Positions 10,709 through 45,070 of a stretch of 64,000 nt of DNA are shown here, in pieces. Under the pieces are notes generated by a model. The model made no database searches. It was given only the letters and a program-made list of their open reading frames with translations, and was not told the origin of the DNA. The position numbers and the translations under genes were made by a program. How positions within the stretch are numbered: the first letter of the stretch is position 1; each line of letters begins with the position of its first letter. Source of the stretch: Oscillospiraceae bacterium (lineage in GTDB: Bacteria > Bacillota > Clostridia > Oscillospirales > Oscillospiraceae); the NCBI GenBank assembly GCA_017437095.1, contig JAFSBW010000043.1:34592-98591 (forward strand), read 5' to 3'.

Positions 10709-13345
10709 TTATACCTTAGAGGCTACGAAATCGTCCACCATAGCCAGAGCATCGTCCAGCTTCATAACATCCTTGCCGCCGCCCATAGCGCTGTCGGGCT
10801 TGCCGCCGCCGCTGCCGCCGCAGGCAGTACATACCTGGCGCACCAGGTCGCCGGCCTTAACGCCCTTGGCAATGGCATCCTTGCCGCAAACAGCCAGGAA
10901 GGTGATCTTGCCATCGTTAACTGCAGACAGAACAGCCACTACATTGCTTGCCTTATCCCGCAGCAGGTCGCCCATCTGGCGCAGCTTGCCGGCATCGGCA
11001 TTGGGTACAGTTGCAGTAAGCACCCGCAGACCGGAGATCTCTTTTGCGCCGAACAGGAAGCGGTCTGCTTCGCCGGCGACCTCCTTGGTCTTAAAGCTTT
11101 CAATATTGCGCTTAAGTGCCTTGATCTCATCGATCTGGCCATGGATCTTGTCCACCAGGTCGGCAGGCTTGGTCTTCAGCTCAGCGCAGGCAGCATACAG
11201 CAGCTTGCGGTTGCGCTCCATATCGGCCAGGCACTCCTTGCCGGTAATAGCCTCGATACGGCGCACGCCGGAAGCTACACTGCCCTCGCTCTCAATGCGG
11301 AAGGGGCCAACCTTGGCGGTATTGTCCAGGTGCGTGCCGCCGCAAAGCTCAATGGAGTAGCCGCCCATATTAACAACGCGGACAGTATCGCCGTACTTTT
11401 CACTAAACAGAGCGGTAGCGCCCATTTCCTTGGCTTCGTCGATGGACATTTCCCGGATGTCGATGGGGTAACCCTCCAGCACGGTAGCCTGAACAACAGC
11501 ATCCACCTTAGCCAGCTCTTCAGCGGTCAGAGCAGAATAGTGGGTAAAGTCGAAGCGCAGACGGTCAGGCTCTACCAAAGAGCCAGCCTGATGGACATGG
11601 TCGCCCAGCACGCCAACCAGAGCTTTCTGCAGCAGGTGGGTAGCAGAGTGGGCGCGCATAATGGCGCTGCGCCGCTCGGTATCGATAACAGCCCAAACAC
11701 TGTCGTCTACCTTAATGGTTCCGCTGAGCATAGTGCCGTGGTGCAGGTACTTGCCGCCCTTGTCCTTCAGCACATTGGTAACCTGGAACTTAATCTCATC
11801 AATACAGATCACGCCGTGGTCAGCCACCTGGCCGCCCATTTCAGCATAGAAAGGTGTCTTATCCAGAACGATAATGCCCTTTTCGCCGCCGGTGATAGAG
11901 CCGGTAACTTCCTCACCGACACAAACAGCCAAAACCTTGGCTTCGCAGCCGATCTCTTCGTAACCCACAAACTGAGTAGGCGTATTGTCCAGGCCCAGGT
12001 CGATACCGGCCCAGCCAAGGTCACCCATCTTCTTGCGGTCTTCCCGGGCACGGATGCGCTGCTCTTCCCGGCAGGCAACATACTTTTCCATATCTACGGT
12101 CATGCCTTCGTCTTCCAGCATTTCCACAGTAAGGTCAATGGGGAAGCCGTAGGTATCAGACAGCAGGAAGGCATCCGCGCCGGAGAATACGGTAGCGCCG
12201 GCAGCTTTATGCTCCGCCAGCTTCTCAGAGAAGATACGCATGCCGATATCGATGGTACGGGCGAAGTTTTCTTCCTCGTTCTTTACCACACGGATCACAT
12301 GAGCGGCGCGCTCACGAAGATAGGTGTAGTGGCTCTCGTTCTCCTTGATAACGGTTTCCACAACCTCATACAGGAAGGGCTTATTCACGCCCAGGAGCTT
12401 GCCGTGACGGGCAGCACGACGCAGCAGACGGCGAAGCACATAGCCTCTGCCCTCGTTGGTGGGCTGTACGCCGTCGGCGATCATAAAGGTGGAAGCCCGG
12501 ATATGGTCGGTAATAACACGCAGGCTTACATCGGTCTTGACGCTCTGGCCGTAAGAAGCGCCGGTAATGGCAGTAACATGGTTGGTGATGTTCATAACCG
12601 TATCCACATCGAAGAGGCTGTTAACATCCTGGCAAACCACAGCCAAACGCTCCAGACCCATGCCGGTGTCGATATTCTTCTGGGCAAGCTCAGTATAGTT
12701 ACCCTGGCCATCGTTGTCAAACTGGGAGAATACATTGTTCCAAACTTCCATGAAGCGGTCGCACTCGCAGCCTACCTTGCAATCGGGGCTGCCGCAGCCG
12801 TACTTTTCGCCGCGGTCATAGTAAACCTCGCTGCAGGGGCCGCAAGGACCGGAGCCATGCTCCCAGAAATTATCACTCTTGCCAAAACGGAAGATGCGAT
12901 CGGCTGCAACACCGATCTCCTTATTCCAGATCTCAAAGGCCTCTTCGTCGTTTTCATAGATAGAGGGGTAAAGACGGTTTTCATCCAGCCCAACTACCTT
13001 GGTAAGGAACTCCCTGCACCAGGCAATGGCTTCATGCTTAAAGTAATCACCGAAGGAGAAGTTGCCCAGCATTTCAAAATAAGTGCCATGGCGGGCGGTC
13101 TTGCCGATGTTTTCAATATCGCCGGTACGGATGCACTTCTGGCAAGTGCAAACACGGCGGCGGGGAGGCTCTACTTCGCCCTTGAAATAGGGCTTCATAG
13201 GGGCCATGCCGGAGTTGATCAGCAGCAAAGACTGGTCATTCTGAGGGATCAGAGAAAAGCTGGGCAGGCGCAGATGGCCCTTGCTTTCAAAGTAGGAAAG
13301 GAACATTTCCCGAAGTTCGTTTACGCCATAAGGTTTCTGGCTCAT
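10709..13345 (-). CDS. alaS: Alanine--tRNA ligase
   Basis: AlaRS charges tRNA-Ala in the cytoplasm. The 878 residues have the standard order: class II catalytic domain (1-250, opening with the LREMFLSYFESKGHL motif), tRNA-binding helical domain, editing domain with zinc ligands in HSATHLL (566-572) and CGGTHL (from Cys668), and the C-terminal DHHA1-like domain with the Gly-rich ACGGSGGGKPDSAMGG. The length is normal and the start is fixed by TTGGAGGTAAATACC. Expression is controlled by the T-box leader just upstream. Confidence 0.99.
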   Translation of the reverse strand: MSQKPYGVNELREMFLSYFESKGHLRLPSFSLIPQNDQSLLLINSGMAPMKPYFKGEVEPPRRRVCTCQKCIRTGDIENIGKTARHGTYFEMLGNFSFGDYFKHEAIAWCREFLTKVVGLDENRLYPSIYENDEEAFEIWNKEIGVAADRIFRFGKSDNFWEHGSGPCGPCSEVYYDRGEKYGCGSPDCKVGCECDRFMEVWNNVFSQFDNDGQGNYTELAQKNIDTGMGLERLAVVCQDVNSLFDVDTVMNITNHVTAITGASYGQSVKTDVSLRVITDHIRASTFMIADGVQPTNEGRGYVLRRLLRRAARHGKLLGVNKPFLYEVVETVIKENESHYTYLRERAAHVIRVVKNEEENFARTIDIGMRIFSEKLAEHKAAGATVFSGADAFLLSDTYGFPIDLTVEMLEDEGMTVDMEKYVACREEQRIRAREDRKKMGDLGWAGIDLGLDNTPTQFVGYEEIGCEAKVLAVCVGEEVTGSITGGEKGIIVLDKTPFYAEMGGQVADHGVICIDEIKFQVTNVLKDKGGKYLHHGTMLSGTIKVDDSVWAVIDTERRSAIMRAHSATHLLQKALVGVLGDHVHQAGSLVEPDRLRFDFTHYSALTAEELAKVDAVVQATVLEGYPIDIREMSIDEAKEMGATALFSEKYGDTVRVVNMGGYSIELCGGTHLDNTAKVGPFRIESEGSVASGVRRIEAITGKECLADMERNRKLLYAACAELKTKPADLVDKIHGQIDEIKALKRNIESFKTKEVAGEADRFLFGAKEISGLRVLTATVPNADAGKLRQMGDLLRDKASNVVAVLSAVNDGKITFLAVCGKDAIAKGVKAGDLVRQVCTACGGSGGGKPDSAMGGGKDVMKLDDALAMVDDFVASKV

Positions 13346-13382: not shown

Positions 13383-13600
13383 AAAAAAACGCCCCTAACA
13401 CATAGGGGCGAATAATCGCGGTACCACCCTAATTATCCCAACGGGATATCTTAGCTGCTCTGTAACGGGAGCGCCCGTCCCGGTCTTCCCGGGCTGCTTG
13501 GAAGTGGCTCATATAGCGCTCACCGCAGGGCTTCCACCGTCCCCTGCTCTCTTCAGGCAGCTGCTATAATTTGTTTCCGCATTGCTTTTGCATATCGTGG
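13383..13600 (-). promoter_or_regulatory. T-box leader (alanine-responsive riboswitch) of alaS
   Basis: The minus strand carries the T-box hallmark AGGGTGGTACCGCG (13430-13417), then a terminator hairpin CGCCCCTA / TAGGGGCG (13410-13390) with seven T residues. Upstream lies a Stem I-like region with GAGAGCAG and GGTGGAAG segments. A GCT triplet followed by A, at 13517-13515 on the 3' side of that stem, is the likely alanine specifier codon. Uncharged tRNA-Ala would pair with the specifier and with the UGGN bulge in GGTGGTACC, stabilise the antiterminator and let alaS be transcribed. The T-box call is firm; the exact specifier register is inferred by eye. Confidence 0.93.
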
Positions 13601-33234: not shown

Positions 33235-36200
33235 TTGTCTGAACCTAAACTGATTAGCCCCCTTCTGGACGGTTTCGTAATGGGCCCGTCCATGAGCGCC
33301 CATCCCGGCGTTCGATCCTGCCCGGCTATGCCCCAGGATTCTGATAAGCGCTATATCGTTAAAATCATTTCCATTCCTGCATCCGCAGAACAGCTGGAAG
33401 CTCTGCTGCTTACCGGAGCTTTTGCAACCCAGGAGTCTGCCCTGGCCTATTTTAAAGACCAGGCCCAGCGCACCATTGAAGAAATCGGCGTGCTGAAAAA
33501 GCTTTCTTCTTTAGAGGGTTTTGTTCCGTTTGAAGCTTACCAGCTGGTAGATAAGCAGAACGAGCCCGGCTATGAGCTGTATATCCTGAGCCCCTACAAG
33601 ACCTCTTTAGAGCAGCAGCTGAACCGCCACACCATGACCCACCTGAATGCCGTAAATCTGGGTCTGGATCTGTGCGCATCTTTGGCTGTATGCCGCCGGG
33701 CAGGCTACCTGTATGTAAACCTGAAGCCTGAAAATGTGTTCATGTCCGAAGACAAGGAATTCCGCATTGGCGATCTGGGCTTTGTCAGCATGGATTCGCT
33801 CAAGTATACTTCTTTGGATGAGCGCTACCACAGCCCTTACTCCGCCCCGGAATGCAGCAATGTGTTTGAAACCCTGAACACTACGGTAGATACCTATGCT
33901 GCCGGTATGATCCTTTACCAGACCTATAACGACGGCTTCCTTCCCTCCCCGGAAGATGGCGACCAGCTGCCCCCTCCCCAGTATGCCGACTACGAAATGG
34001 CCGAGATCATCATGAAGGCCATTGATCCTAACCCGGCCAACCGCTGGAAGGATCCCATCGCTATGGGGCAGGCTATTGTTACCTATATGCAAAAATACGG
34101 GGCAAACGATGTTCCTATCGTTCCCGTAGCCATCCCGGTAAATCCCGCGCCTATTGTTGCGGAAGTTGCGGAAGAGATTCCTGAAACTCAAGCCGAAGAG
34201 ATCGAAGCCGATGTTCCCGCTTTGGAAGAGGAGATCGATGCTCTCGTTTGGGAAGAGGAAGCCGGCGCTGCGGATACTGTTGCGCAGGATGAAGCTGCTG
34301 CGCAGGAATTGGCAGAGGAGCTTGCGCAGCCTATTGCGGATATTCCCGCAGAAGCTGAAGATGTGCCTTCTGACGAGGAGCTTATGCAGCAGATCCAGCT
34401 GCTTTTGGGCGATGAAGATATCACCCCAGAAGATCCTCTGCCTTTGAGCGAAGCAGAAGCTTTTGCCGAAGATATGCCCGCTGCCGCAGAGCTTTCCGAA
34501 ACCCCCGATGCCGGCGCTGAAGCTGAGCAGATAGCTGACGAGGCTTTGGCGGAAACCGAGAATGCTGAAGAAACATTGGAAGAAGCCTTGGAAGAAGCTC
34601 CGGAATTAGACCCGGATGATCCTGCCAACCTTTCTTTTATGCAGCTTTTGGTAAGTGACGAGACAGCCCCCTCCGAAGATATGGCTGATGCTTTCGGTTA
34701 CGATGAGCTTTCTCAGGATGCTACCGATATTCTGGCTCTGGCAGACGAGCTTTTGATGCACGAAACTCCCGCAGGCGTAGTTGCGCCTGAGCCTATTGAT
34801 GTTCCGGCGCCGCCTCCTATCATGCTGAAAACTGAGGAGGATATGGAGCCCATAACCGCCATCGATTCTGATTATCAGCCCCCCGCAGCCACCGCCCAAG
34901 AGGACGACACACAAGGCTTGGACGAAGCTGATTATGATGATGACGATTACGATGACGACTATGAGGATCTCCCCTCCAGCTTCTCCTGGAAAAAGCTGGC
35001 GATTGCCGCTCTGATCATCGCCCTGATCGGCGCCATTTGTTTGATCGGCTACAGTCATTTCAGCAAAGACTACGTTCTGAAAATTGACGATCTGAATGTG
35101 ATTGGCACCGGAAACTCCATAAGCGTGCAAGTAGATTCCGACATTAAGGACGAGCTGATCACGATTGAATGCATCGACAACAACGGCACAAAGCAAACCA
35201 GCCAGGTCGTAAACGGATATGCGGAGTTTACCAATTTAAATCCGGATACTTTGTACCGCATTTATGTAAGGGTAAGCGGTAACCACAAGGTCAAAGGTGA
35301 GCAGGAAGCCCGCTACACAACTCCCAAAATCACCAATGTTATTAGCTTTACGGCCGTAGCCGGCGCTGAAGACGGCTCTGCTACGCTGCGGTTCAAAGTA
35401 GATGGCCAGACAGCCAAAAGCTGGAAGGTAGTTTACAGCACCGAAGGTGAGCCGGAGCTTGTTAAAGAGTTTACCGACGATATGGTTACCGTCACCGGTC
35501 TGACTATCGGCAAGACCTATACTTTCCGCCTGCAATCGGACGACGCGGTTTATATTGTGGGTTATGACACTTTGGAGTATACGGCCAAAGCCCTGGTTAT
35601 GGCGCAGGATGTACAGATCACCGGGTGCGACAACGGTAAGCTTACCGTCCAATGGGCAACGCCTGAAGGCCAAAGCGTAAACAGCTGGAGCGTGCGCTGC
35701 TATAACGAGGATATTGGCTACAACGAAACCGTCACCACCTCCGGCAACAGCGCAGAATTTACTCTAACGGATACCACCAAGGGCTACACAGTAGCTGTTA
35801 CTGCCGAAGGCATGACCACTCCCACCCGCGCGTTCCTGAAGCCTGGCAGCATCACCGTTCGTGAGTTTAAAGTAGACGATTCTGATCCTACCAAGCTGAC
35901 TATTTCCTGGAATTACGGCGGGCCCGCTCCCGAGGGTGAATGGCTGCTCATGTACAATGTGGAAGGTAAGGAAGAAACAGAGCTGGTACGCACAGCTACA
36001 ACCGAATCTGTTGTGATCCACAACAAAGTGCCCAACGCTACTTACCATTTTACCATTTCTACCCAATCCGGTGTAACGGTATTTAACGATACCCACAGCG
36101 TAACCACTAAGGCTGCGCCCAGCTTTGATAAATACAAAATCGCAGCCAAGGATATTGTTTTCACCATGTGCGTTACCCCCGACAAGCCTGATTGGACCTA

Positions 36201-36501
36201 CCGGGATGTAGAAATCAAAACCCAAACCTTTAAACCAGGTCAAAAGGCATCGTTTACCATGAGCCTGCTGCTGGCTCCCGGCGACTCTTATGACATGATC
36301 ACGATCATGTATGTGATCCGGGATGAACAGGGGAATGTCCTTAGCGATGATACGCAAACTGTCCAGTGGATTGTTATGTGGAAAGATTACCGCGGAGAGC
36401 TGGATGTGCCCGCTCTGCCCACAGAGCCCGGAAATTATAGCATAGATATCTACTTTAACGGCTGCTTCGTGAAAAATGAAAAGTTCACCATCACGCAATA
36501 A
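33235..36501 (+). CDS. Receptor-like pseudokinase with FN3-like extracellular domains
   Basis: The 1088-residue protein starts at TTG, 8 bases after AGGAGG. Residues 1-285 form an Hanks-type kinase fold: Lys43 in RYIVKII, YVNLKPENVF at 160-169, DLG at 180-182 and APE at 204-206. The catalytic Asp of HRD is Asn162 here and no Gly-rich loop is visible, so phosphotransfer is unlikely. Residues 290-580 are an acidic Ala/Glu/Asp-rich linker. One membrane helix (about 583-604) leads to a beta-rich extracellular part with repeated TLYRIYVR- and KTYTFRLQS-type fibronectin III signatures. It probably senses or scaffolds at the envelope. Ligand and partners are unknown. Confidence 0.8.
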   Translation: MSEPKLISPLLDGFVMGPSMSAHPGVRSCPAMPQDSDKRYIVKIISIPASAEQLEALLLTGAFATQESALAYFKDQAQRTIEEIGVLKKLSSLEGFVPFEAYQLVDKQNEPGYELYILSPYKTSLEQQLNRHTMTHLNAVNLGLDLCASLAVCRRAGYLYVNLKPENVFMSEDKEFRIGDLGFVSMDSLKYTSLDERYHSPYSAPECSNVFETLNTTVDTYAAGMILYQTYNDGFLPSPEDGDQLPPPQYADYEMAEIIMKAIDPNPANRWKDPIAMGQAIVTYMQKYGANDVPIVPVAIPVNPAPIVAEVAEEIPETQAEEIEADVPALEEEIDALVWEEEAGAADTVAQDEAAAQELAEELAQPIADIPAEAEDVPSDEELMQQIQLLLGDEDITPEDPLPLSEAEAFAEDMPAAAELSETPDAGAEAEQIADEALAETENAEETLEEALEEAPELDPDDPANLSFMQLLVSDETAPSEDMADAFGYDELSQDATDILALADELLMHETPAGVVAPEPIDVPAPPPIMLKTEEDMEPITAIDSDYQPPAATAQEDDTQGLDEADYDDDDYDDDYEDLPSSFSWKKLAIAALIIALIGAICLIGYSHFSKDYVLKIDDLNVIGTGNSISVQVDSDIKDELITIECIDNNGTKQTSQVVNGYAEFTNLNPDTLYRIYVRVSGNHKVKGEQEARYTTPKITNVISFTAVAGAEDGSATLRFKVDGQTAKSWKVVYSTEGEPELVKEFTDDMVTVTGLTIGKTYTFRLQSDDAVYIVGYDTLEYTAKALVMAQDVQITGCDNGKLTVQWATPEGQSVNSWSVRCYNEDIGYNETVTTSGNSAEFTLTDTTKGYTVAVTAEGMTTPTRAFLKPGSITVREFKVDDSDPTKLTISWNYGGPAPEGEWLLMYNVEGKEETELVRTATTESVVIHNKVPNATYHFTISTQSGVTVFNDTHSVTTKAAPSFDKYKIAAKDIVFTMCVTPDKPDWTYRDVEIKTQTFKPGQKASFTMSLLLAPGDSYDMITIMYVIRDEQGNVLSDDTQTVQWIVMWKDYRGELDVPALPTEPGNYSIDIYFNGCFVKNEKFTITQ

Positions 36502-36512
36502 CCCCATCTTCC

Positions 36513-36545
36513 GGGCTGCTTCCCATGGAGCAGCCCGGTTTTCTT
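36513..36545 (+). terminator. Intrinsic terminator after the pseudokinase gene
   Basis: CCGGGCTGCT and AGCAGCCCGG form a 10-bp stem with an 8-base loop, followed by TTTTCTT. Confidence 0.88.
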
Positions 36546-36589: not shown

Positions 36590-36618
36590 TTGCAAAATAG
36601 AAAACATAGTGCTATACT
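36590..36618 (+). promoter_or_regulatory. Promoter of the aromatic amino acid operon
   Basis: TTGCAA (36590-36595), a 17-bp spacer and TATACT (36613-36618) lie 35 bases before the leader-peptide start. Confidence 0.78.
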
Positions 36619-36652
36619 ACTTTTAGCTAATGTGTTTGGAGGTCAACTGATC

Positions 36653-36721
36653 ATGGTTGCCAATGTCTTTGCCGCACAGTTTTACTTTAGCTACTATTAC
36701 TTTTTTACCTGCAAAAAGTAA
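36653..36721 (+). CDS. Phe/Tyr-rich leader peptide of the aro operon
   Basis: This is a 22-codon open frame with a strong ribosome site (GGAGGT, 9 bases upstream). It encodes a peptide with five Phe and four Tyr; residues 10-18 read FYFSYYYFF, eight aromatics out of nine. It stops at 36719-36721, ahead of an intrinsic terminator and the DAHP synthase gene. There is no Trp. The composition, position and overlapping RNA hairpins are those of a classical attenuation leader, in which ribosome stalling on scarce Phe- or Tyr-tRNA allows readthrough. Confidence 0.88.
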   Translation: MVANVFAAQFYFSYYYFFTCKK

Positions 36722-36801
36722 TAGCGATTTGTGCTGCAAGGAATTTTCAAGATTTTGTTTATTTTTAACGCTGCACATACTGTGCGGCGTTTTTATTTTT
36801 T
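36668..36801 (+). promoter_or_regulatory. Transcription attenuator of the aro operon (four-segment type)
   Basis: Segment 1 (36668-36679, inside the leader just before the aromatic codons) can pair with segment 2 (36729-36740) over about 12 positions with one mismatch and one G-U. Segment 2 (36730-36737, TGTGCTGC) can instead pair with segment 3 (36770-36777, GCTGCACA), giving an antiterminator. Segment 3 with segment 4 (36767-36777 / 36781-36791) makes an 11-bp terminator followed by TTTATTTTTT. Stalling at codons 36680-36706 would mask segment 1 and favour 2:3. Pairings were found by eye; energies were not computed. Confidence 0.8.
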
Positions 36802-36816
36802 AAGGAGATGTTTGTT

Positions 36817-37818
36817 ATGATCGCAGTATTGAAGCATGGAACCACCCCGGAGCAGACCCAATACCTGGTGCAGTGGCTGGCCCGCATGAATCTGGATGTA
36901 CACATTTCCGAGGGTGCCGAGGTTACCGTTCTGGGCCTCATCGGTGACACTTCCCGGGTAGACATGGAGCTGCTTGGCTCTTTGGAGATCGTGGACTCTG
37001 TAAAGCGGGTATCCGAGCCCTTTAAGCAGGCAAACCGTAAGTTCCACCCCAATGATACCGTAGTGCAGGTTGGCGATGCTAAGATCGGCGGCGGCAATTT
37101 TGCCATGATCGCAGGCCCCTGCTCCGTAGAGAGCGAAGAGCAGATCATTGAAGTAGCAACCGCTGTGAAAGCCTCCGGCGCACACATCCTGCGCGGCGGC
37201 GCATTCAAGCCCCGTACCTCCCCCTACGCCTTCCAGGGTATGAAGGGCGATGGCATCAAGCTGCTGCTGGAAGCCAAAAAGGCTACCGGCCTTCCCATTA
37301 TTACCGAAATCATGAACATCAGCACTCTGGACCTGTTTGAAGATGTTGACATCATTCAGGTCGGCGCCAGAAATATGCAAAACTTCGACCTTTTGAAGGA
37401 GCTTGGCAAGACCAAAAAGCCAATCCTCCTCAAGCGCGGCCTGGCCAATACCCTGCAGGAGCTTCTTATGAGCGCCGAATACATTATGAGCGAGGGCAAT
37501 GAAAATATTATTCTCTGTGAGCGAGGCATCCGCACCTTTGAGACCTGCACCCGGAATACTTTGGATCTTTCCGCTGTTCCCGTGCTGCATGAGCTGACCC
37601 ACCTGCCTGTGATGGTCGATCCCAGCCATGCTACCGGCAAAGCCAAGCTGGTAGCTCCTATGGCCGTGGCAGCCGCTGCCAGCGGCGCTGACGGCATCAT
37701 GATCGAGGTGCATAACAACCCCTCCTGCGCACTTTGTGACGGCGCACAGTCCCTTACTCCCGCTCAGTTTGACGCTCTGAATAAGAAAGTCAACGCCGTG
37801 CGCGAGGCTTTGGTATGA
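36817..37818 (+). CDS. aroF: 3-deoxy-7-phosphoheptulonate (DAHP) synthase, type I-beta with N-terminal regulatory domain
   Basis: This enzyme performs the first shikimate step, joining PEP and erythrose 4-phosphate. Residues 1-75 are the ferredoxin-like regulatory domain (MIAVLKHGTTPEQTQYLV...) found in Thermotoga-type enzymes that are inhibited by Tyr or Phe. The catalytic barrel follows with FAMIAGPCSVES, LRGGAFKPRTSPYAFQG, and VMVDPSHATGK. The start at 36817 is preferred over the ATG at 36808 because AAGGAG overlaps the latter. It is the first structural gene after the attenuator and overlaps tyrA by 4 bases. Confidence 0.96.
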   Translation: MIAVLKHGTTPEQTQYLVQWLARMNLDVHISEGAEVTVLGLIGDTSRVDMELLGSLEIVDSVKRVSEPFKQANRKFHPNDTVVQVGDAKIGGGNFAMIAGPCSVESEEQIIEVATAVKASGAHILRGGAFKPRTSPYAFQGMKGDGIKLLLEAKKATGLPIITEIMNISTLDLFEDVDIIQVGARNMQNFDLLKELGKTKKPILLKRGLANTLQELLMSAEYIMSEGNENIILCERGIRTFETCTRNTLDLSAVPVLHELTHLPVMVDPSHATGKAKLVAPMAVAAAASGADGIMIEVHNNPSCALCDGAQSLTPAQFDALNKKVNAVREALV

Positions 37819-38645
37819 ATGTAGGCATATTGGGCCTGGGGCTTATTGGCGGAAGCTTAGCCCGGGCCTACGCTAAGTCCGGCGCTCAGGTTTACGCCCA
37901 GGAAAAAGACGAGCAGATCTTTGGCTTTGCGCAGCTCTCCGGCGTTGTATCCGGGGCTTTGGACGAGTCCACAATCCCCAGCTGCGACCTGATCCTGCTT
38001 GCCATCTATCCCGGCGGCAGCATCGCCTGGCTGGAGCAAAACGCAAAGCACATCTCCCCTGCTGCGCTGGTTATGGATTGCTGCGGTGTAAAAGAAGAGG
38101 TTTGCGCCTGCTGTTTCCCCCTTGCCAAGGAATTTGGCTTTACCTTTATCGGCGGCCACCCCATGGCCGGCTCACACAATTCCGGCTTTAAGTATAGCCG
38201 CAGCAACCTGTTCCAGGGTGCTCCTATGGTGCTTGTGCCGGAAAGGTTTGACGATATTGCGCTTTTACAGCGGGCAAAGGATGCCCTTGCCCCCTGCCAG
38301 TTTGGCCGTTTCTCGGTTACTACCGCCCGCAAGCATGACCAGATGATCGCTTTTACCAGCCAAATGCCCCATATTCTTAGCAATGCCTTTATCAAATCCC
38401 CTACCGCTTTGGAGCATAAGGGTTTTTCAGCCGGCAGCTATAAAGACCTCACCCGGGTCGCCTGGTTAAACCCCCAGATGTGGGCAGAGCTATTTCTGGA
38501 TAACAAAGAGTTTGTGCTATCTGAGCTGGACTGCTTTCTGGAGAACCTGGCAGCTTACCGCAGGGCCATTGCCGCGGAGGATAAAGATGCGCTTGTTGCT
38601 CTGCTGGATGAAGGTAAGCGCCGCAAAGAGGAGGTAGACGGATGA
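37815..38645 (+). CDS. tyrA: Prephenate dehydrogenase
   Basis: TyrA oxidatively decarboxylates prephenate to 4-hydroxyphenylpyruvate, the Tyr branch. The 276 residues have the dinucleotide-binding GILGLGLIGGSLARAY at the N-terminus, VMDCCGVKEEV, and GGHPMAGSHNSG, which carries the catalytic His. The helical dimer domain fills the C-terminal half. There is no ACT domain, so feedback may rest on other enzymes. ATGA overlaps join it to aroF and aroB on both sides. Confidence 0.94.
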   Translation: MNVGILGLGLIGGSLARAYAKSGAQVYAQEKDEQIFGFAQLSGVVSGALDESTIPSCDLILLAIYPGGSIAWLEQNAKHISPAALVMDCCGVKEEVCACCFPLAKEFGFTFIGGHPMAGSHNSGFKYSRSNLFQGAPMVLVPERFDDIALLQRAKDALAPCQFGRFSVTTARKHDQMIAFTSQMPHILSNAFIKSPTALEHKGFSAGSYKDLTRVAWLNPQMWAELFLDNKEFVLSELDCFLENLAAYRRAIAAEDKDALVALLDEGKRRKEEVDG

Positions 38646-39688
38646 AAACCGTAGAAGTAACCGCTTCCAAAAATTACCGGGTGGTCATCGGCAATGCTCT
38701 GCTGCCGCATTTGGGAGATTTTCTCTCTCAGGTATGCAAAGCCCAGAAGATCGCCATCGTAAGCGACAGCAATGTATGGCCCCTGTTCGGCAAAACCGTT
38801 ACTGACGCCTTGGCAGGCTATGAAACCGTTTCCTTTGTATTCCCCGCCGGGGAAGAAAGCAAAAACGGCGCTACCTACCTGCGCCTGCTGAACTTTCTGG
38901 CAGAAAACAAGCTGACCGGAAGCGATTGCCTGGTAGCCCTGGGCGGCGGCGTTGTCGGCGATCTTACCGGTTTTGCCGCTGCTACCTACCGCCGGGGCAT
39001 AGCCTATGTGCAAGTGCCTACAACCGTTCTGGCCGCTGTAGATTCCAGCGTTGGCGGCAAAACCGCCATCGATCTGGATTCCGGCAAAAACCTGGCCGGC
39101 GCTTTCCATCAGCCCAGCCTGGTGCTTTGCGATCTGGATACGCTGAACACCCTGCCCAAAGATATTTTCCGGGACGGCTGCGCGGAGATCATTAAGTACG
39201 GCGTTCTCTACGACGAAGGGCTTTTTGCCCACTTAGAAGAAAAGGGGCTTGCCTTTGACCGCAAGCAGGTGATCTCCCGCTGCGTAGAGCTAAAGCGAGA
39301 TGTGGTCGCCCGGGATGAATTTGACCGGGGTGAGCGCCAGAAGCTCAACCTTGGCCATACCCTTGGCCACGGCATCGAAGCATGCAGCCATTATGAGATC
39401 TCTCACGGCAGCGCCGTAGCCGCGGGCATGGCCATGGTAAGCCGCCTCGCCCAAAAGCTGGGCATCTGTTCCGCAAGCTGCGCTTTGCGCATTGAGCAGG
39501 TGCTGAAAGCTTTTGGTTTGCCTACCAATTCCCAGTTTTCTGCCAAAGAGCTTTATCAGTGCGCTCTGTCTGATAAAAAACGCAGCGGCGCTACTGTAAA
39601 CCTGATCTTGCCCGAGAAAATCGGTTTTTGCCGCATTGCCCCTACTGATATTACCAAAATGGAAGCCTATATAGAAATGGGACGATAA
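38642..39688 (+). CDS. aroB: 3-dehydroquinate synthase
   Basis: AroB converts DAHP to 3-dehydroquinate using NAD and a metal ion. The 348 residues show the NAD site (IAIVSDSNVWPLFG), VALGGGVVGDLTGFAAATY, the substrate-binding VPTTVLAAVDSSVGGKTAID, and the metal ligands in LGHTLGHGIE (His) near 240. Length and order are typical. It overlaps tyrA by 4 bases and ends 2 bases before aroA. Confidence 0.97.
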   Translation: MKTVEVTASKNYRVVIGNALLPHLGDFLSQVCKAQKIAIVSDSNVWPLFGKTVTDALAGYETVSFVFPAGEESKNGATYLRLLNFLAENKLTGSDCLVALGGGVVGDLTGFAAATYRRGIAYVQVPTTVLAAVDSSVGGKTAIDLDSGKNLAGAFHQPSLVLCDLDTLNTLPKDIFRDGCAEIIKYGVLYDEGLFAHLEEKGLAFDRKQVISRCVELKRDVVARDEFDRGERQKLNLGHTLGHGIEACSHYEISHGSAVAAGMAMVSRLAQKLGICSASCALRIEQVLKAFGLPTNSQFSAKELYQCALSDKKRSGATVNLILPEKIGFCRIAPTDITKMEAYIEMGR

Positions 39689-39690
39689 TT

Positions 39691-40860
39691 ATGGATATTA
39701 CCATCCACCCGGGAAAGCTGAGGGGCTCACTTACCGCCATCCCCTCAAAATCTCAGGCCCACCGGCTGCTGATCTGCGCCGCCTTTGCCCAAGGGGAAAC
39801 TAAGCTGATCTGCCGGGATACCAACGAGGATATTGAAGCTACCGCCGCTTGCCTGAACGCGCTGGGCGCAAATATTACCCGCCATAGCTGGGGCTACCAT
39901 GTGATCCCCGCAAGTAAGCTCCCTGACGAGGCTATGCTCCCGGTGAACGAAAGCGGGTCCACGCTTCGGTTTTTATTGCCGGTAGCCGGCGCTTTGGGAG
40001 TAAATGCAACTTTTATAATGGCTGGCCGCCTGCCCCAGCGCCCCCTTTCTCCCCTATGGGAAGAGCTGGAGCGCATGGGTTGCCATCTAAGCCGGCCTAC
40101 GGAAAGCAGCATTTACATTTCCGGTAAGCTTCGCCCCGGCAATTACAGCATTGACGGCGGCGTTAGCAGCCAGTTTATCAGCGGGTTGCTGTTTGCCATC
40201 ACATTGATAGGCCAGGGCAGCCGGCTAAATGTTACGGGCAATGTGGAATCCCGTCCCTATATTGATATGACCGAAAAGGCATTGGCCTTATTTTTGAAAA
40301 ACGGCGCTTTGGTCTCCCCCGGGGAAATTACCGTTGAGGGCGATTGGAGCAACGGCGCTTTCTTTCTGGCCGCGAAAGCCCTTGGAAGCAATATAGAAAT
40401 TACCGGCCTTGCTTCCGATTCTCCCCAAGGTGACCGGGCCTGCGCCCATTGGGTCCCCGCGCTGGAGCAGCACCAGACTATCAGCGCAAAGGACATTCCC
40501 GATCTGGTGCCGATCCTGGCGGTAGTAGCCGCTGCCAACCAGGGAGCGGTTTTTACAGACATCCGCCGCCTGCGTGCCAAGGAATCCGACCGGGTAGAAA
40601 GCGTTAAGAACATGCTGAGCGCGCTTGGTGTGAAAAGCCATTCCGACGAAAACACCTTGACCGTATATCCCGCCAGCTTTACCGGCGGAATTGTAAATAG
40701 CCAAAACGACCACCGCATTGCCATGGCAGCTGCCATCGCCGCAACTGTGGCATCGGCAGATGTAACAGTGCTTGGGGCGCAATGCGTCAAAAAATCCTAC
40801 CCCTCCTTCTGGGAGGAATACGGAAAACTGGGAGGCAATTATGAGCTCGACCTACGGTGA
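39691..40860 (+). CDS. aroA: 3-phosphoshikimate 1-carboxyvinyltransferase (EPSP synthase)
   Basis: AroA transfers the enolpyruvyl group of PEP to shikimate 3-phosphate. The 389 residues contain IPSKSQAHRLLICAAFA (15-32) at the shikimate phosphate site, NESGSTLRFLLPVAGALG at the PEP site, VSSQFISGLLFA and RAKESDRVESVKNML. It is rather short for the family (usually about 425-430), with the deletions spread over loops. It overlaps aroC by 20 bases, so translation is probably coupled. Confidence 0.95.
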   Translation: MDITIHPGKLRGSLTAIPSKSQAHRLLICAAFAQGETKLICRDTNEDIEATAACLNALGANITRHSWGYHVIPASKLPDEAMLPVNESGSTLRFLLPVAGALGVNATFIMAGRLPQRPLSPLWEELERMGCHLSRPTESSIYISGKLRPGNYSIDGGVSSQFISGLLFAITLIGQGSRLNVTGNVESRPYIDMTEKALALFLKNGALVSPGEITVEGDWSNGAFFLAAKALGSNIEITGLASDSPQGDRACAHWVPALEQHQTISAKDIPDLVPILAVVAAANQGAVFTDIRRLRAKESDRVESVKNMLSALGVKSHSDENTLTVYPASFTGGIVNSQNDHRIAMAAAIAATVASADVTVLGAQCVKKSYPSFWEEYGKLGGNYELDLR

Positions 40861-41926
40861 AAATTTAAAGCTTTCTATTTTTGGCCAGAGCCATGGCAGC
40901 GCCATCGGCATGACCCTCAATGGCATTCCTGCCGGGCTTACTGTGGATGAAAAAAAGCTGGCCGCATTTCTGGCGCGCAGAGCGCCCGGGCAGAACGGCT
41001 GGTCTACTCCCCGTAAAGAAACAGATGCGCCGGAATTTCTTTCCGGAATCGTAGACGGATACACCTGCGGCGCTCCCATTGCGGCGATCATCCGCAATAC
41101 CAACACCCGCTCCGGTGACTATGATAACCTGAAAGACTGTCCCCGGCCCGGCCATGCAGACTATACAGCCCAGATCAAATACGGCGGGTTTCAGGATGCC
41201 GCAGGTGGCGGCCATTTTTCCGGCCGTCTTACCGCCCCGCTTTGTATCGCCGGCGGTATGTGCAAACAATGGCTGGAGCAGCTTGGCATTCAGATCAGCG
41301 CCCACATTGCATCCATTGGCGATGTAAGCGATGACCTGTTTGATCCTGTAAACCCGGATATGCAGGGCGTTGGGCCGGTTTTCCCGGTGCTTGACCCGAA
41401 AGCGGGGCTGCAAATGCAAGGGCTGATCGAAAAAGTAAAACGCGAAGGCGACAGCATCGGCGGTACGGTGGAATGCTGCATTACCGGCCTTCCCGCCGGG
41501 CTGGGTGAGCCTATGTTTGGCGGCATGGAGAGCAGAATCGCTGCCATTGTATACGGCGTTCCCGCTGTAAAGGGCGTAGAGTTCGGCGCCGGCATGCAGG
41601 TAGCCCGGATGCGCGGCAGCGAAAACAATGACCCCTTTACTGTAGTAAACGGGCAGATCCAAACCGAGACCAACCACTGCGGCGGCATCCTGGGCGGCAT
41701 TACCAACGGCATGCCTTTGATCTTCCGCTGCGCTGTAAAGCCTACCCCCTCTATAGCCAAACTACAGCAAAGCGTAAAGCTTTCTGAAAATGTAATTACC
41801 ACACTGCAAGTACAAGGCCGCCACGACCCCTGCATCGTTCCCCGGGCTGTTCCGGTAATCGAGGCCGCAGCCGCCATTGCCATCTATGATACGATTTTGG
41901 GAGGAAATAACCATGGAGCTAAATGA
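40841..41926 (+). CDS. aroC: Chorismate synthase
   Basis: AroC makes chorismate from EPSP with reduced FMN. The 361 residues open MSSTYGENLKLSIFGQSHGS, the family's first signature, followed by RAPGQNGWSTPRKE, GGGHFSGRLTAPLCIAGG and a C-terminal GRHDPCIVPRAVPVIEA. The start at 40841 follows GGGAGGCAATT; the longer frame from 40772 has no ribosome site. It overlaps pheA by 14 bases. No flavin reductase domain is fused, so it is the monofunctional type. Confidence 0.97.
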   Translation: MSSTYGENLKLSIFGQSHGSAIGMTLNGIPAGLTVDEKKLAAFLARRAPGQNGWSTPRKETDAPEFLSGIVDGYTCGAPIAAIIRNTNTRSGDYDNLKDCPRPGHADYTAQIKYGGFQDAAGGGHFSGRLTAPLCIAGGMCKQWLEQLGIQISAHIASIGDVSDDLFDPVNPDMQGVGPVFPVLDPKAGLQMQGLIEKVKREGDSIGGTVECCITGLPAGLGEPMFGGMESRIAAIVYGVPAVKGVEFGAGMQVARMRGSENNDPFTVVNGQIQTETNHCGGILGGITNGMPLIFRCAVKPTPSIAKLQQSVKLSENVITTLQVQGRHDPCIVPRAVPVIEAAAAIAIYDTILGGNNHGAK

Positions 41927-43055
41927 ACTGAGAAATCAAATCGATAATATTGACGACGAGCTGGTAAAACTTTTTGGCAAGCGGATGGAAGTAGCTGCCC
42001 AGATCGCAGACTACAAAAAGGAAAACGGTCTGCCCATCTTTGTTCCCTCCCGGGAGCGGGAAAAGCTGCTGGATGTTTCCACCAAGGCCGGCCCGGATAT
42101 GGACAACTACACCCGGGTGCTGTACTCTCTGCTTTTTGAGCTGAGCCGCAGCTATCAGAGTAAGCGCAATATCAAGACCTCCGCCCTGCATGAGCAGATC
42201 ACCGAGGCCATCGAATCTACCCCCAAGCTTTTCCCCCAGAACGCTATGGTTGCCTGCCAGGGCGTAGAGGGCGCTTACTCTCAGATCGCCTGCGAGAAGA
42301 TGTTCAAGAGCCCCTTTATTATGTATTTCAAGAACTTTGAAGGCGTATTCAACGCCATTGACCAAGGCCTTTGCCAGTACGGCATTCTGCCCATCGAAAA
42401 CTCAACCGCCGGCTCCGTAAAAAAGGTATACGACCTGATGATCAAGCACAATTTCTCCATTGTGCGCACCTTCCGGCTTAAAGTAGACCACAACCTGCTG
42501 GCCAACAAGGGTACCAAGCTGGAAGACATTCGGGAGATCTATTCCCATGAGCAGGCCATTAACCAGTGCGCCGATTTCCTGGCAGGGCTGAAGAATGTTA
42601 AGATCATTCCCGTAGAGAATACCGCCGTGGCCGCTAAAATGGTTGCCGATTCCAAGCGCACCGATGTAGCCGCCCTTTCCAGCCGCAACTGCGCTGAGCT
42701 TTACGGGCTGGTATGCCTTTGCGCTTCCATTCAGGATAAGGGCAATAACCGCACCCGCTTTATCTGCATCAGCAAACGCATGGAGATCTACCCCGGCTCT
42801 GATAAGACCAGCATTATGATGGTGCTTAACCACAAGCCCGGCGCGCTGTATAAGGTGCTGGCCAGAATGTATGTATTGGGCATCAATGTGATCAAGCTGG
42901 AATCCCGCCCCATTCCTGACCGGGATTTTGAGTTTATGTTCTATTTTGACCTGGAAACCTCTATCTACTCTGAGGAATTTGTGCAGCTGATGTGCGAGCT
43001 GGACGAGCTTTGCGAGGAATTTAAGTACCTCGGCAGCTACAGTGAGGTTGTTTAA
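41913..43055 (+). CDS. pheA: Bifunctional chorismate mutase / prephenate dehydratase
   Basis: The 380-residue protein makes prephenate and then phenylpyruvate, the Phe branch. Residues 1-85 are an AroQ-type chorismate mutase (MELNELRNQIDNIDDELVKL, then FVPSREREKLLD). Residues 105-285 are the dehydratase, with VACQGVEGAYSQIACEKMF and IENSTAGSVKKVYDL. The rest is an ACT domain with the GAL and ESRP (KLESRPIP) motifs that bind Phe, implying feedback inhibition. The start at 41913 follows GGGAGGAAATAACC. It joins the next gene by a TAATG overlap. Confidence 0.96.
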   Translation: MELNELRNQIDNIDDELVKLFGKRMEVAAQIADYKKENGLPIFVPSREREKLLDVSTKAGPDMDNYTRVLYSLLFELSRSYQSKRNIKTSALHEQITEAIESTPKLFPQNAMVACQGVEGAYSQIACEKMFKSPFIMYFKNFEGVFNAIDQGLCQYGILPIENSTAGSVKKVYDLMIKHNFSIVRTFRLKVDHNLLANKGTKLEDIREIYSHEQAINQCADFLAGLKNVKIIPVENTAVAAKMVADSKRTDVAALSSRNCAELYGLVCLCASIQDKGNNRTRFICISKRMEIYPGSDKTSIMMVLNHKPGALYKVLARMYVLGINVIKLESRPIPDRDFEFMFYFDLETSIYSEEFVQLMCELDELCEEFKYLGSYSEVV

Positions 43056-44281
43056 TGGTATGCGGGCTGCTGGGCGGGAAGCTTGGCCACAGCTACTCCC
43101 CCCAGATCCATAGCCAGCTTGGCGAATATGAATACCGCCTGTTTGAAAAGAAGCCGGAGGAGCTGGCTCAATTTTTGAAAGAGGGGGATTTTGCCGGGCT
43201 GAATGTGACCATTCCCTACAAAAAAGATGTAATAGCCTATTGCGATGCCCTCTCCCCCATTGCCAAGCGGCTGGGCGCGGTAAACACCATCGTAAAAAGG
43301 GCAGATGGCACTCTGATCGGCCACAATACCGACTATTTTGGCTTTGCCAGCATGGTGAAGCGCAGCGCCCTGGATCCCAAAGGCAAAAAAGTGCTGGTGC
43401 TGGGCAGCGGCGGCGCTTCCAATACTGCAAAAGCGGTTATGGCGGAGCTGGGCGCAAAGGTTGTAGTCATCTCCCGTTCCGGGGAGAATAACTACGAAAA
43501 CCTGCATCTGCATAGCGACTGCGCTATTATTGTTAACACCACTCCTGTTGGCATGTATCCCAATGTTGGCGTTTCCCCTATCCGCCTGGAGCAGTTCCCT
43601 GCCCTGGAAGGCGTGCTGGATGTGATCTACAATCCCGCCAATACCCAGCTGTTGCTGGATGCCCAAAAGCTGGGGTTAAAGACAGAAAACGGGCTTTGGA
43701 TGCTGGTAGCCCAAGCCAAGGAAAGCAGCGAATGGTTTACCGGGCGCAGTATTAGCAACGATAAGATCAGCGATATTCACCGCAAGCTGCGCCGGCAGAC
43801 GGAAAATATTATCCTGATCGGTATGCCCGGCTGCGGCAAAACCACCGTAGGCAAAGCTTTGGCCCAGAAGCTGGGAAAAACCTTTGTAGACGCAGATGAA
43901 GCTATTGCCCAAACTGCGGGTTGTGATATCCCAACCATCTTTGCCACCCAGGGAGAAAGCGGATTCCGTCAGCTGGAAACCCAAGCTCTTGCAGATATTG
44001 GCAAACGATCCGGCCTGGTGATGTCCACCGGCGGCGGCTGCGTTACCCAAGAGAGGAATTACCCCCTGCTGCACCAAAACGGCACCCTTATCTGGCTGCA
44101 GCGCAGCTGCGATGCTCTGGCTACCGGTGGCCGGCCATTGTCACAAAAACAAAACCTGGCAGATATGTACGCCGTAAGAAAGCCTATGTATGAAGCCTTT
44201 GCCGATGGCATTGTGGAAAACTCCGGCAGCATCGAGCATGCGGTAAGCCTATGCCTGGAACTATGGGAGGATTTGGTATGA
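43055..44281 (+). CDS. aroEK: Fused shikimate dehydrogenase - shikimate kinase
   Basis: The 408 residues join two consecutive pathway enzymes. Residues 1-245 are shikimate dehydrogenase (GGKLGHSYSPQIHS, GLNVTIPYKKDV, GHNTDYFGF, and the NADP loop VLGSGGASNTAKAV). A basic linker (KLRRQTENI) leads to shikimate kinase (about 250-408) with P-loop IGMPGCGKTTVGKAL, DADEAIAQTAG, the GFRQLETQAL motif and STGGGCV. Both sets of active-site residues appear intact. AroE-AroK fusions are uncommon, and here the fusion replaces separate genes. There is a 1-base overlap with pheA and 4 bases with aroQ. Confidence 0.93.
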   Translation: MVCGLLGGKLGHSYSPQIHSQLGEYEYRLFEKKPEELAQFLKEGDFAGLNVTIPYKKDVIAYCDALSPIAKRLGAVNTIVKRADGTLIGHNTDYFGFASMVKRSALDPKGKKVLVLGSGGASNTAKAVMAELGAKVVVISRSGENNYENLHLHSDCAIIVNTTPVGMYPNVGVSPIRLEQFPALEGVLDVIYNPANTQLLLDAQKLGLKTENGLWMLVAQAKESSEWFTGRSISNDKISDIHRKLRRQTENIILIGMPGCGKTTVGKALAQKLGKTFVDADEAIAQTAGCDIPTIFATQGESGFRQLETQALADIGKRSGLVMSTGGGCVTQERNYPLLHQNGTLIWLQRSCDALATGGRPLSQKQNLADMYAVRKPMYEAFADGIVENSGSIEHAVSLCLELWEDLV

Positions 44282-44706
44282 AAATTTTGGTATTAAACGG
44301 CCCTAATATCAATATGCTGGGTATCCGTGAGCCGGGTATTTACGGCAAGCAAAGCTTTGTCGATCTGCTGGCCGTGCTGCAAGCTACTGCTGAAGCAGAG
44401 AATGTAGAAATAGACCAGTACCAAAGCAACCATGAGGGCTGCCTGGTGGATAAGATCCAGCAGGCCTTGGGGGTATACGACGGCATTGTGATCAACCCCG
44501 CCGCCTATACTCATACCTCTGTTGCGATTCTGGATGCATTGAAGGCTGTAGCTATTCCTGCGGTGGAAGTGCATATCTCCAATGTAGATGCCAGAGAGGC
44601 TTTTCGGCAGATCTCTTATGCGGGCCTTGCCTGCAAACATACCATCAAAGGCCAGGGCCTGGATGGCTACCGGCAAGCAGTAGTTTGGCTGAAAGAGCAT
44701 ATTTGA
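44278..44706 (+). CDS. aroQ: 3-dehydroquinate dehydratase, type II
   Basis: AroQ dehydrates 3-dehydroquinate to 3-dehydroshikimate. The 142 residues are the small type II fold, with VLNGPNINMLGIREPGIYG containing the catalytic Tyr, YQSNHEGCLVD, INPAAYTHTSVAILDA and EVHISNVDAREAFR with the catalytic His. It is the last gene of the operon and overlaps aroEK by ATGA. With it the operon encodes every step from PEP and erythrose 4-phosphate to chorismate. Confidence 0.96.
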   Translation: MKILVLNGPNINMLGIREPGIYGKQSFVDLLAVLQATAEAENVEIDQYQSNHEGCLVDKIQQALGVYDGIVINPAAYTHTSVAILDALKAVAIPAVEVHISNVDAREAFRQISYAGLACKHTIKGQGLDGYRQAVVWLKEHI

Positions 44707-44780: not shown

Positions 44781-44858
44781 TCGGGGTGTGGCGAAGTTTG
44801 GTATCGCGCTTGGTTCGGGTCCAAGAGGCCCCGGGTTCAAATCCCGGCACTCCGACCA
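44781..44858 (+). tRNA. tRNA-Pro (anticodon CGG)
   Basis: The 78-base sequence, including an encoded CCA, folds as a tRNA: acceptor TCGGGGT / ACTCCGA, anticodon stem CTTGG / CCAAG with loop TTCGGGT (anticodon CGG, reading CCG), and T-arm CCGGG TTCAAAT CCCGG. It has its own consensus promoter and a downstream terminator. Confidence 0.96.
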
Positions 44859-44860
44859 GA

Positions 44861-44892
44861 AAAAGACCTTGTCGAAAGACAAGGTCTTTTTC
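44861..44892 (+). terminator. tRNA-Pro(CGG) terminator
   Basis: AAAAGACCTTGT and ACAAGGTCTTTTT form a 12-bp stem with a T-run directly after the tRNA. Confidence 0.9.
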
Positions 44893-44893
44893 A

Positions 44894-45070
44894 ACGAAAT
44901 AAATCCCTGCGGGATTTATGAAATGCACTTCGTGCGTGAAATACGCTTACGGCGTGTGAAATGCCTGCAGGCGTGAGTGGATTTATTTCATTTCACTTTC
45001 TGCTTTAGCAGAAAATTTCATAATTCACGAGCTGAATTATTTCACCGTGAGCGAAAGCGAACGATTTCAC
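44894..45070. repeat. Array of short hairpins joined by TGAAAT-type links
   Basis: Successive small stems, GCAC/GTGC, ACGC/GCGT, GCCT/AGGC, TTTCTGC/GCAGAAA and AATTCA/TGAATT, are separated by GTGAAAT or close variants. The first part is enclosed by a perfect 11-base inverted repeat, GAAATAAATCC (44896-44906) and GGATTTATTTC (44979-44989). There is no coding signal. It lies between the tRNA terminator and the pepD terminator and looks like an intergenic repeat; the family was not recognised. Confidence 0.55.

Follow-up and report, generated by a model that had tools for sequence, protein, structure and literature searches.

A putative Phe/Tyr leader-peptide attenuator upstream of a shikimate operon in an Oscillospiraceae bacterium, and similar leaders before aroF in related Clostridia

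Organization of the aroF locus

We analyzed a 64,000-nt stretch of DNA from an Oscillospiraceae bacterium, an uncultured gut bacterium (assembly GCA_017437095.1, contig JAFSBW010000043.1, positions 34,592-98,591, forward strand). This whole stretch is referred to as the window, and all coordinates are given in window numbering, in which position 1 is its first letter. The window harbors the following eight genes:

36817-37818 (+), aroF, DAHP synthase of the B. subtilis type (family match)
37815-38645 (+), tyrA, prephenate dehydrogenase (family match below the models' cut-offs)
38642-39688 (+), aroB, 3-dehydroquinate synthase (family match)
39691-40860 (+), aroA, EPSP synthase (259.7 bits; model cut-off 287)
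40841-41926 (+), aroC, chorismate synthase (family match; start chosen by eye)
41913-43055 (+), pheA, chorismate mutase-prephenate dehydratase (below the models' cut-offs; start chosen by eye)
43055-44281 (+), aroE-aroK, shikimate dehydrogenase-shikimate kinase fusion (below the models' cut-offs)
44278-44706 (+), aroQ, type II 3-dehydroquinate dehydratase, the last gene (start chosen by eye)

Several of these family matches are strong yet under the models' own cut-offs. The eight genes (36817-44706) overlap or sit 2 bp apart, given the starts of aroC, pheA and aroQ chosen by eye, and this tight spacing suggests that they likely form a shikimate/Phe/Tyr operon transcribed as one unit from the leader region described below. 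Phe and Tyr, which the control codons of this leader specify, are among the products of the operon.

The gene directly upstream of the operon (33235-36501, +) encodes a large protein whose N-terminal part weakly matches protein kinase, and its end at 36501 is followed by a terminator-like hairpin (36511-36538). Shortly past the end of the operon lies a Gut-1 RNA (RF01706, 67.6 bits; 44892-44967, +), with a tRNA gene (44782-44855) in between.

A leader peptide rich in Phe and Tyr precedes aroF

The region upstream of aroF contains the following predicted features:

36590-36618 (+), promoter TTGCAA-17-TATACT with TG before the -10 (sequence, motif scan)
36638-36642 (+), Shine-Dalgarno GGAGG of the leader peptide (sequence, genus comparison)
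36653-36721 (+), leader peptide gene, MVANVFAAQFYFSYYYFFTCKK, 22 codons (ATG 36653, TAA 36719-36721)
36666-36679 (+), segment 1, outer 5' arm, partner of segment 2 (folding; unconserved across the genus)
36694-36724 (+), codon hairpin, 36694-36705 pairing with 36713-36724 (folding, genus alignment)
36729-36742 (+), segment 2, partner of segment 1 or, with 36730-36737, of segment 3 as antiterminator
36767-36791 (+), terminator hairpin of 11 bp, segment 3 (36767-36777) and segment 4 (36781-36791)
36790-36801 (+), T-rich tract of the terminator (sequence)

A sequence-only reading of this locus had described a promoter, a 22-codon leader peptide with a ribosome site and Phe or Tyr at eight of the nine positions 10-18, and an 11-bp terminator with a T-run ahead of the DAHP synthase gene, and our analysis found each of these elements in place. 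Residues 10-18 read FYFSYYYFF, and this leader is the sole ORF of 10-60 amino acids on both strands of the 64 kb that combines a Shine-Dalgarno sequence with at least six Phe/Tyr in nine residues; the runner-up ORF of this size has five. Between the end of the terminator and the start of aroF at 36817 are 25 nt. The promoter, with its end 34 nt ahead of the leader ATG, scores second among the promoter-like sites of the window leader, behind TTGCCA-18-TAGAAT, whose end lies 79 nt before the ATG; in 27 of 31 leaders from the genus, the promoter-like site with the best score ends 28-36 nt before the ATG. Taken alone, the promoter and terminator scans barely exceed chance (two found of each vs 1.0 and 0.9 in shuffled sequences), so that the case has to be carried by comparison.

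Conservation of the leader within the genus

An aroF match was found in 34 of the 37 genus genomes searched (the window's own and 36 others), and examination of all 34 upstream regions identified an aromatic leader in 31. Thus, the leader is kept in related species, where its absence would have argued against the attenuator. The three leaderless loci (G010, G034 and G035) have the most diverged aroF genes (57-69% identity; next lowest, 77%). Together, the 31 peptides contain 145 Phe, 121 Tyr and no Trp, with at least two Phe and at least two Tyr each and 7-9 Phe/Tyr in nine residues, while the residues outside the run vary. In the upstream regions L034 and L044, which belong to diverged aroF genes of the genus, reading by eye showed a terminator-like hairpin and no aromatic leader, possibly a decayed attenuator.

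We saw no sign of a multi-site regulon in a search of 42 genus genomes with a codon-hairpin pattern and of the window's own genome with segment 2. Of the 42 genomes, 27 have a single place that fits the pattern (none with the reversed control); the pattern misses variant hairpins, and this place can be read as the aroF leader only in genomes with a known aroF position. Segment 2 occurs once in the window's own genome.

Alternative RNA structures and covariation

The pairings 1:2, 2:3 and 3:4 proposed from the sequence are all present in the window, with folding energies of -24.2 (including the inner codon hairpin), -10.3 and -15.8 kcal/mol, respectively, and the leader RNA as a whole (36625-36800) folds at -47.9 kcal/mol (z = -3.4; none of 200 shuffles as good). 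The pairing described as a single 1:2 helix does exist, but as two nested helices: an outer one joining 36666-36679 with 36729-36742, and an inner one, the codon hairpin, built from the Tyr/Phe codons. The 5' arm of the latter (36694-36705) lies within codons 14-18 (Tyr-Tyr-Tyr-Phe-Phe), and its 3' arm (36713-36724) comprises the Lys codons and the stop.

Next to these energies, we analyzed covariation in an alignment of the 31 genus leaders, in which the codon hairpins of L028 and L030 are shifted by three columns and were left so. RNAalifold yielded two hairpins from this alignment, the terminator and the codon hairpin, with the 5' arm of the latter in the Tyr-Tyr-Phe-Phe codons. As related sequences are not independent, none of the covariation and permutation figures that follow is a strict probability. 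In the terminator, 8 of the 11 pairs show changes on both sides, a number reached by none of 500 shuffles. The antiterminator was defined as segment 2 (consensus CGAUUUGUGC-UGC) paired with segment 3 and the terminator loop (GC-GCACGAAUUG), and its covariation count leaves out a column pair with a mismatch in almost every sequence. Within it, 91.3% of cells are paired (0/500 shuffles as high), nine cells have changes on both sides vs 3.0 in shuffles (1/500 as high), and double changes occur in 4 of 12 pairs (reached by 22/500 shuffles); further pair types were not above the shuffles (215/500 reach the count). Slid versions of this pairing all fall far below the native one.

Since the antiterminator was picked by eye from the same sequences, a second, permutation test was made. 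When segment 2 was re-dealt among the 23 distinct 2:3 pairs, the native total was never reached in 10,000 permutations, and with single swaps of segment 2 the native duplex lies above the mean in 28 of 31 leaders. Compensatory changes in relatives, whose absence would have spoken against the proposal, were therefore seen for both 2:3 and 3:4. The column pair left out of the count is a U-C or U-U mismatch (36735/36772 in the window, alignment columns 107/156) that is kept in nearly all genus leaders, and the same position, 36735, also faces a mismatch with segment 1 in the 1:2 pairing of the window, as if the mismatch were kept to hold these helices weaker than the terminator.

Segment 1 fared differently. 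Across the genus, its outer helix has 78.7% of cells paired and no excess covariation, and we rejected it as a conserved pairing partner, a point on which the earlier reading needs correction. The codon hairpin is the better conserved upstream element, with 93.5% of cells paired; it has one double compensation among 13 pairs (51/500 shuffles reach this), contributed by L031, the locus with the lowest aroF similarity among the 31, so that conservation of this hairpin could be largely driven by coding.

Effect of ribosome position on the predicted fold

To relate these structures to translation, we used a folding model in which a ribosome masks the RNA over an assumed footprint, reaching 18 nt upstream and 11 nt downstream from the first base of the A-site codon, and in which the readout is the equilibrium probability of the antiterminator core before segment 4 is made. 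Averaged over the 31 leaders, this probability is 0.78 for stalls at Phe/Tyr codons and 0.25 with the ribosome at the stop codon; it is 0.56 when no ribosome is present. The model thus separates the stalled from the finished state, as expected of an attenuator. In 27 of the 31 leaders, the mean over Phe/Tyr stalls lies above 0.5 (it is at most 0.5 in four), and the value at the stop codon is below 0.1 in 20 and at least 0.1 in 11, the window included. Without a ribosome, the antiterminator probability is at least 0.5 in 18 leaders and below 0.5 in 13; silence without translation is thus predicted only for the window and 12 other genus leaders.

In the window, the probability is 0.98-0.99 with the ribosome at codons 4-15, at most 0.02 at codons 16-18, 0.13 at the stop codon and 0.00 without a ribosome. 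The proposal that a stalled ribosome would mask segment 1 and so favor 2:3 is consequently borne out by the model for stalls up to codon 15, and fails for codons 16-18, where segment 1 is uncovered and the antiterminator is not favored. Since the mostly non-aromatic codons 4-9 favor the antiterminator as much as codons 10-15 do (the aromatic run starts at codon 10), the model captures an effect of position only, and the cause of a stall lies outside its reach.

T-boxes and other RNA families

An Rfam search of the leader locus returned no family over threshold. RF01859 (Phe_leader) reached 18.7 bits (E = 0.78), below its gathering cut-off of 55, and together with GcvB (18.2 bits, cut-off 42) and two other sub-threshold matches at the leader it was treated as a chance match. 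The genome contains 12 matches to the T-box family (RF00230), seven of them above the cut-off and none at aroF, and a T-box at this locus was rejected on this basis. Among eight T-box loci taken for gene lookup, seven are followed by tyrS, metG, a leuA-like gene, three acyl-CoA-ligase-like genes and ileS, and at the eighth no ORF was found by the script. The T-box before tyrS is L053 (G000:C70:70430-70661, -). Within the window, a further T-box match (13401-13591, -; 83.7 bits, cut-off 93) lies before alaS (10709-13345, -). Charging of tRNA-Tyr is thus probably sensed in two ways in this genome, by a T-box at tyrS and by the leader peptide at aroF.

Distribution of aromatic leaders in the order and the class

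We then considered regions upstream of 240 aroF loci, comprising the genus and other relatives, a sample of the order and 80 loci from named genomes (the best 80 of 591), a set that includes duplicates and close relatives. With a Shine-Dalgarno filter, ORFs with at least six Phe/Tyr in nine residues were found at 107 of the 240 loci vs 3 of 1190 dinucleotide shuffles. Without this filter, and with two loci dropped for length, the counts were 164/238 vs 62/1190 for at least five in nine (about 5% by chance), 134/238 vs 7/1190 for at least six, and 84/238 vs 0/1190 for at least seven.

Leaders of this kind are accompanied by terminators. Among 195 distinct regions, with a leader defined by at least five of nine and 36 genus-type leader loci left out, a terminator of -8 kcal/mol or lower is present in 119 of 122 leader-bearing regions vs 30 of 73 leaderless ones. 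For 61 of 110 distinct leader peptides (49 lacking it), a stretch between the run and the terminator pairs with the 5' arm and loop of the terminator so well that no more than 5% of mononucleotide shuffles equal it.

The order sample consisted of 157 genomes with 104 aroF carriers, 99 of which were examined together with one further relative. A leader (at least five of nine) and a terminator precede aroF in 68 of these 100 genomes, from 19 of 21 families, and are absent by the same criteria in 32; one of the 68 belongs to the window's genus, and some of the ORFs picked by rule, such as that of L032, are probably not the true leader. The two families lacking the arrangement are f6 (0/3) and f14 (0/1). 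T-box motifs stand in for the leader mainly in one family, f13, where they occur in nine of ten genomes and the leader in one. In several families other than that of the window, a Gly-Lys-Ala-(Tyr/Phe/Cys) motif often comes after the aromatic run (e.g., L036, L037, L155 and L182).

In a sample of the class, aroF was matched in 87 of 118 genomes, and a leader ORF with a terminator was found in 38 of the 69 upstream regions examined. Among the named genomes, an ORF with five or six Phe/Tyr in nine residues precedes aroF in, for example, Clostridium ganghwense, Pelosinus sp., Angelakisella massiliensis and Papillibacter cinnamivorans; no Phe/Tyr-rich ORF was found before aroF in Desulfosporosinus fructosivorans or Faecalibacterium sp. 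An122. Because the arrangement is common in the order and occurs elsewhere in the class, the leader is not an oddity of one genome, and the expectation, raised from the sequence alone, that Firmicutes would control such genes with T-boxes or repressors fits poorly here.

Trp codons and anthranilate synthase

The lack of Trp codons in the genus leaders was compared with the occurrence of anthranilate synthase component I (PF04715), which was detected in all 14 control genomes and in none of the 41 from the genus, 15 of which have a completeness of 90% or more with contamination no higher than 5%. On this evidence, the aromatic pathway in the genus most likely ends in Phe and Tyr, which fits a leader without Trp codons, and the host is likely a Trp auxotroph. 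As no anthranilate synthase was found, a comparison with a trp operon leader in the window's own genome was dropped. A search for three consecutive Trp codons gave 40 places vs 56 in the control, that is, background.

Outside the genus, 114 genomes were searched for trpE, of which 111 bear a leader (here, at least five Phe/Tyr/Trp in nine, with no terminator required). Trp codons in or next to the run were found in 10 of 37 leader genomes with trpE vs 5 of 74 without it (one-sided Fisher p = 0.005; p = 0.006 collapsed by genus), an association that is exploratory, post hoc and uncorrected for kinship. In the remaining 27 of these 37 genomes with trpE, Trp codons are absent from the run and its immediate neighborhood.

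Discussion

The E. coli pheL/pheA and trpL attenuators form alternative 1:2, 2:3 and 3:4 hairpins. The locus described here is very probably a transcription attenuator of the same trp type, in which a leader peptide would sense charged tRNA-Phe and tRNA-Tyr and control the eight-gene operon. Several features that define such attenuators were found: a short ORF, preceded by a ribosome site, in which codons for the operon's products form a run; an intrinsic terminator between this ORF and aroF; and, downstream of the control codons, an antiterminator that excludes the terminator, as indicated by covariation and permutation. The 1:2 hairpin, which would exclude the antiterminator, is strong in the window; in the genus its outer helix is unconserved and its inner helix is conserved with little covariation. 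Sequence and comparison thus agree on the leader, the hairpins and the operon and on their conservation and covariation.

From this arrangement, we infer how the leader would respond to Phe and Tyr. Under shortage of either amino acid, a ribosome would stall in the FYFSYYYFF run and cover segment 1 as well as the codon hairpin; segment 2 would then pair with segment 3, no terminator would form and RNA polymerase would read into aroF. With ample Phe and Tyr, the ribosome would reach the stop codon and cover the start of segment 2, leaving segments 3 and 4 to pair and transcription to end near 36800. In the absence of translation, 1:2 pairing in the window's own genome would likewise leave the terminator free. 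The codon hairpin is probably a pause site for RNA polymerase, which would let the ribosome catch up. The idea that trp-leader logic is applied here to Phe and Tyr together is therefore supported by the genus comparison, the covariation and the folding model, with function as the inferred part.

An arrest peptide would share this RNA logic entirely. In that case, the nascent Phe/Tyr-rich chain, with or without a free amino acid, would stall the ribosome as TnaC does, with no role for uncharged tRNA; so strongly aromatic a nascent chain is unusual, and the folding model, being sensitive to position only, cannot tell what stalls the ribosome. However, Phe and Tyr interchange by position, the rest of the peptide is unconserved, and the length and context of the run vary across families. 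Arrest peptides usually retain a fixed motif, which is at odds with so variable a leader, and we consider this explanation improbable. Even less probable is a terminator that attenuates constitutively and without regulation, with a leader that affects only translation or mRNA stability. The terminator does end close to aroF, and terminator-like hairpins also occur in two-fifths of the distinct leaderless regions (30/73), but they accompany nearly all leader-bearing regions outside the genus-type loci, and segment 2 covaries with segment 3. Least probable of all is control of the operon by a tRNA- or metabolite-binding RNA (T-box or riboswitch) beside an incidental small ORF, since the T-box matches of this genome, those at tyrS and alaS included, and the T-box motifs at some aroF genes of the order are offset by the lack of any T-box match or Rfam family over threshold at the aroF leader and by a Phe/Tyr run far beyond chance (none of the 1190 shuffles at seven of nine).

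Attenuation by a Phe/Tyr leader, the reading we favor, is a known mechanism with precedents at aroF in Corynebacterium and Acholeplasma. In the actinobacterium C. glutamicum, the aroR leader peptide, with Phe and Tyr codons, precedes the DAHP synthase gene aroF, and stalling raises transcription under Phe limitation (Neshat et al. 2014, as cited in PMC11802643); it is likened to our leader by its peptide rather than by RNA segments, and the source gives a Phe-Tyr-Phe motif where the window has a run of eight in nine. The Acholeplasma uORFC-13-1, a proposed attenuator, is a Phe-coding uORF before a terminator and aroF, with 24 examples from Acholeplasma and unassigned environmental sequences only; it is set apart by its description, which in the part of the source devoted to it gives at least one Phe codon and no Tyr run (PMC8632094). 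For aroF(-tyrA) of E. coli and Shewanella, attenuation before DAHP synthase is presented in the relevant parts of the sources as a hypothesis or prediction in Proteobacteria, with no leader sequence given, and a Shewanella table names Tyr-tRNA as the signal (PMC8632094; PMC2659441). The E. coli pheL/pheA and trpL leaders also carry cognate codons, according to the section that covers them (PMC11802643).

Each of these two E. coli systems responds to a single amino acid of a terminal branch, whereas here Phe and Tyr would act together on the common pathway. Leader-peptide attenuation has been described mostly in Proteobacteria and Actinobacteria; the pre-2010 exception given in a 2010 survey is the atypical ermC leader, to the knowledge of its authors, and the His leaders of bacilli are presented there as the first regular ones outside these two phyla (PMC2965389). 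The His leaders of Firmicutes (PMC2965389; PMC9413887) and a Leu-rich attenuator peptide of Staphylococcus aureus (PMC5794164) share the mechanism, as far as these accounts describe it, and concern other amino acids and operons. The Firmicutes T-boxes of aromatic genes likewise sense tRNA charging before aromatic amino acid genes but, as outlined in the source, bind tRNA directly and have no leader peptide (PMC2494555), and they have no match at our aroF locus. Enterococcus faecium aroFBC-tyrA also has a cis-regulatory RNA before a Firmicutes aroF operon, set apart by its description as a predicted riboswitch with no leader peptide in the portion of the text concerned (PMC4448216).

Among the matches listed in a search of the open-licence literature by title and start of abstract, with subscription papers outside its scope, we recognized no report of Phe/Tyr leaders in Clostridia. 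Aromatic regulation in low-GC Gram-positives was reportedly treated by Panina et al. in 2003. The interest of the present finding lies in its breadth in Clostridia and in its fit to the likely Trp auxotrophy of the host, not in the mechanism itself.

Taken together, leader-peptide attenuation looks like a common entry control of aromatic amino acid synthesis in gut Clostridia. A broader scenario, to which we would give just short of an even chance, is that Phe/Tyr leader attenuation is both old and the prevailing way to control DAHP synthase in the order, reaching into other orders and replaced by T-boxes in some lineages, and that leader codons follow the aromatic amino acids made by the host, with Trp codons lost (or gained) along with anthranilate synthase. 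A leader at aroF and a T-box at tyrS in one genome provide a system for asking what keeps two sensors of one tRNA side by side, how lineages exchange one sensor for the other, and whether the codons of a leader follow the amino acid auxotrophies of its host.
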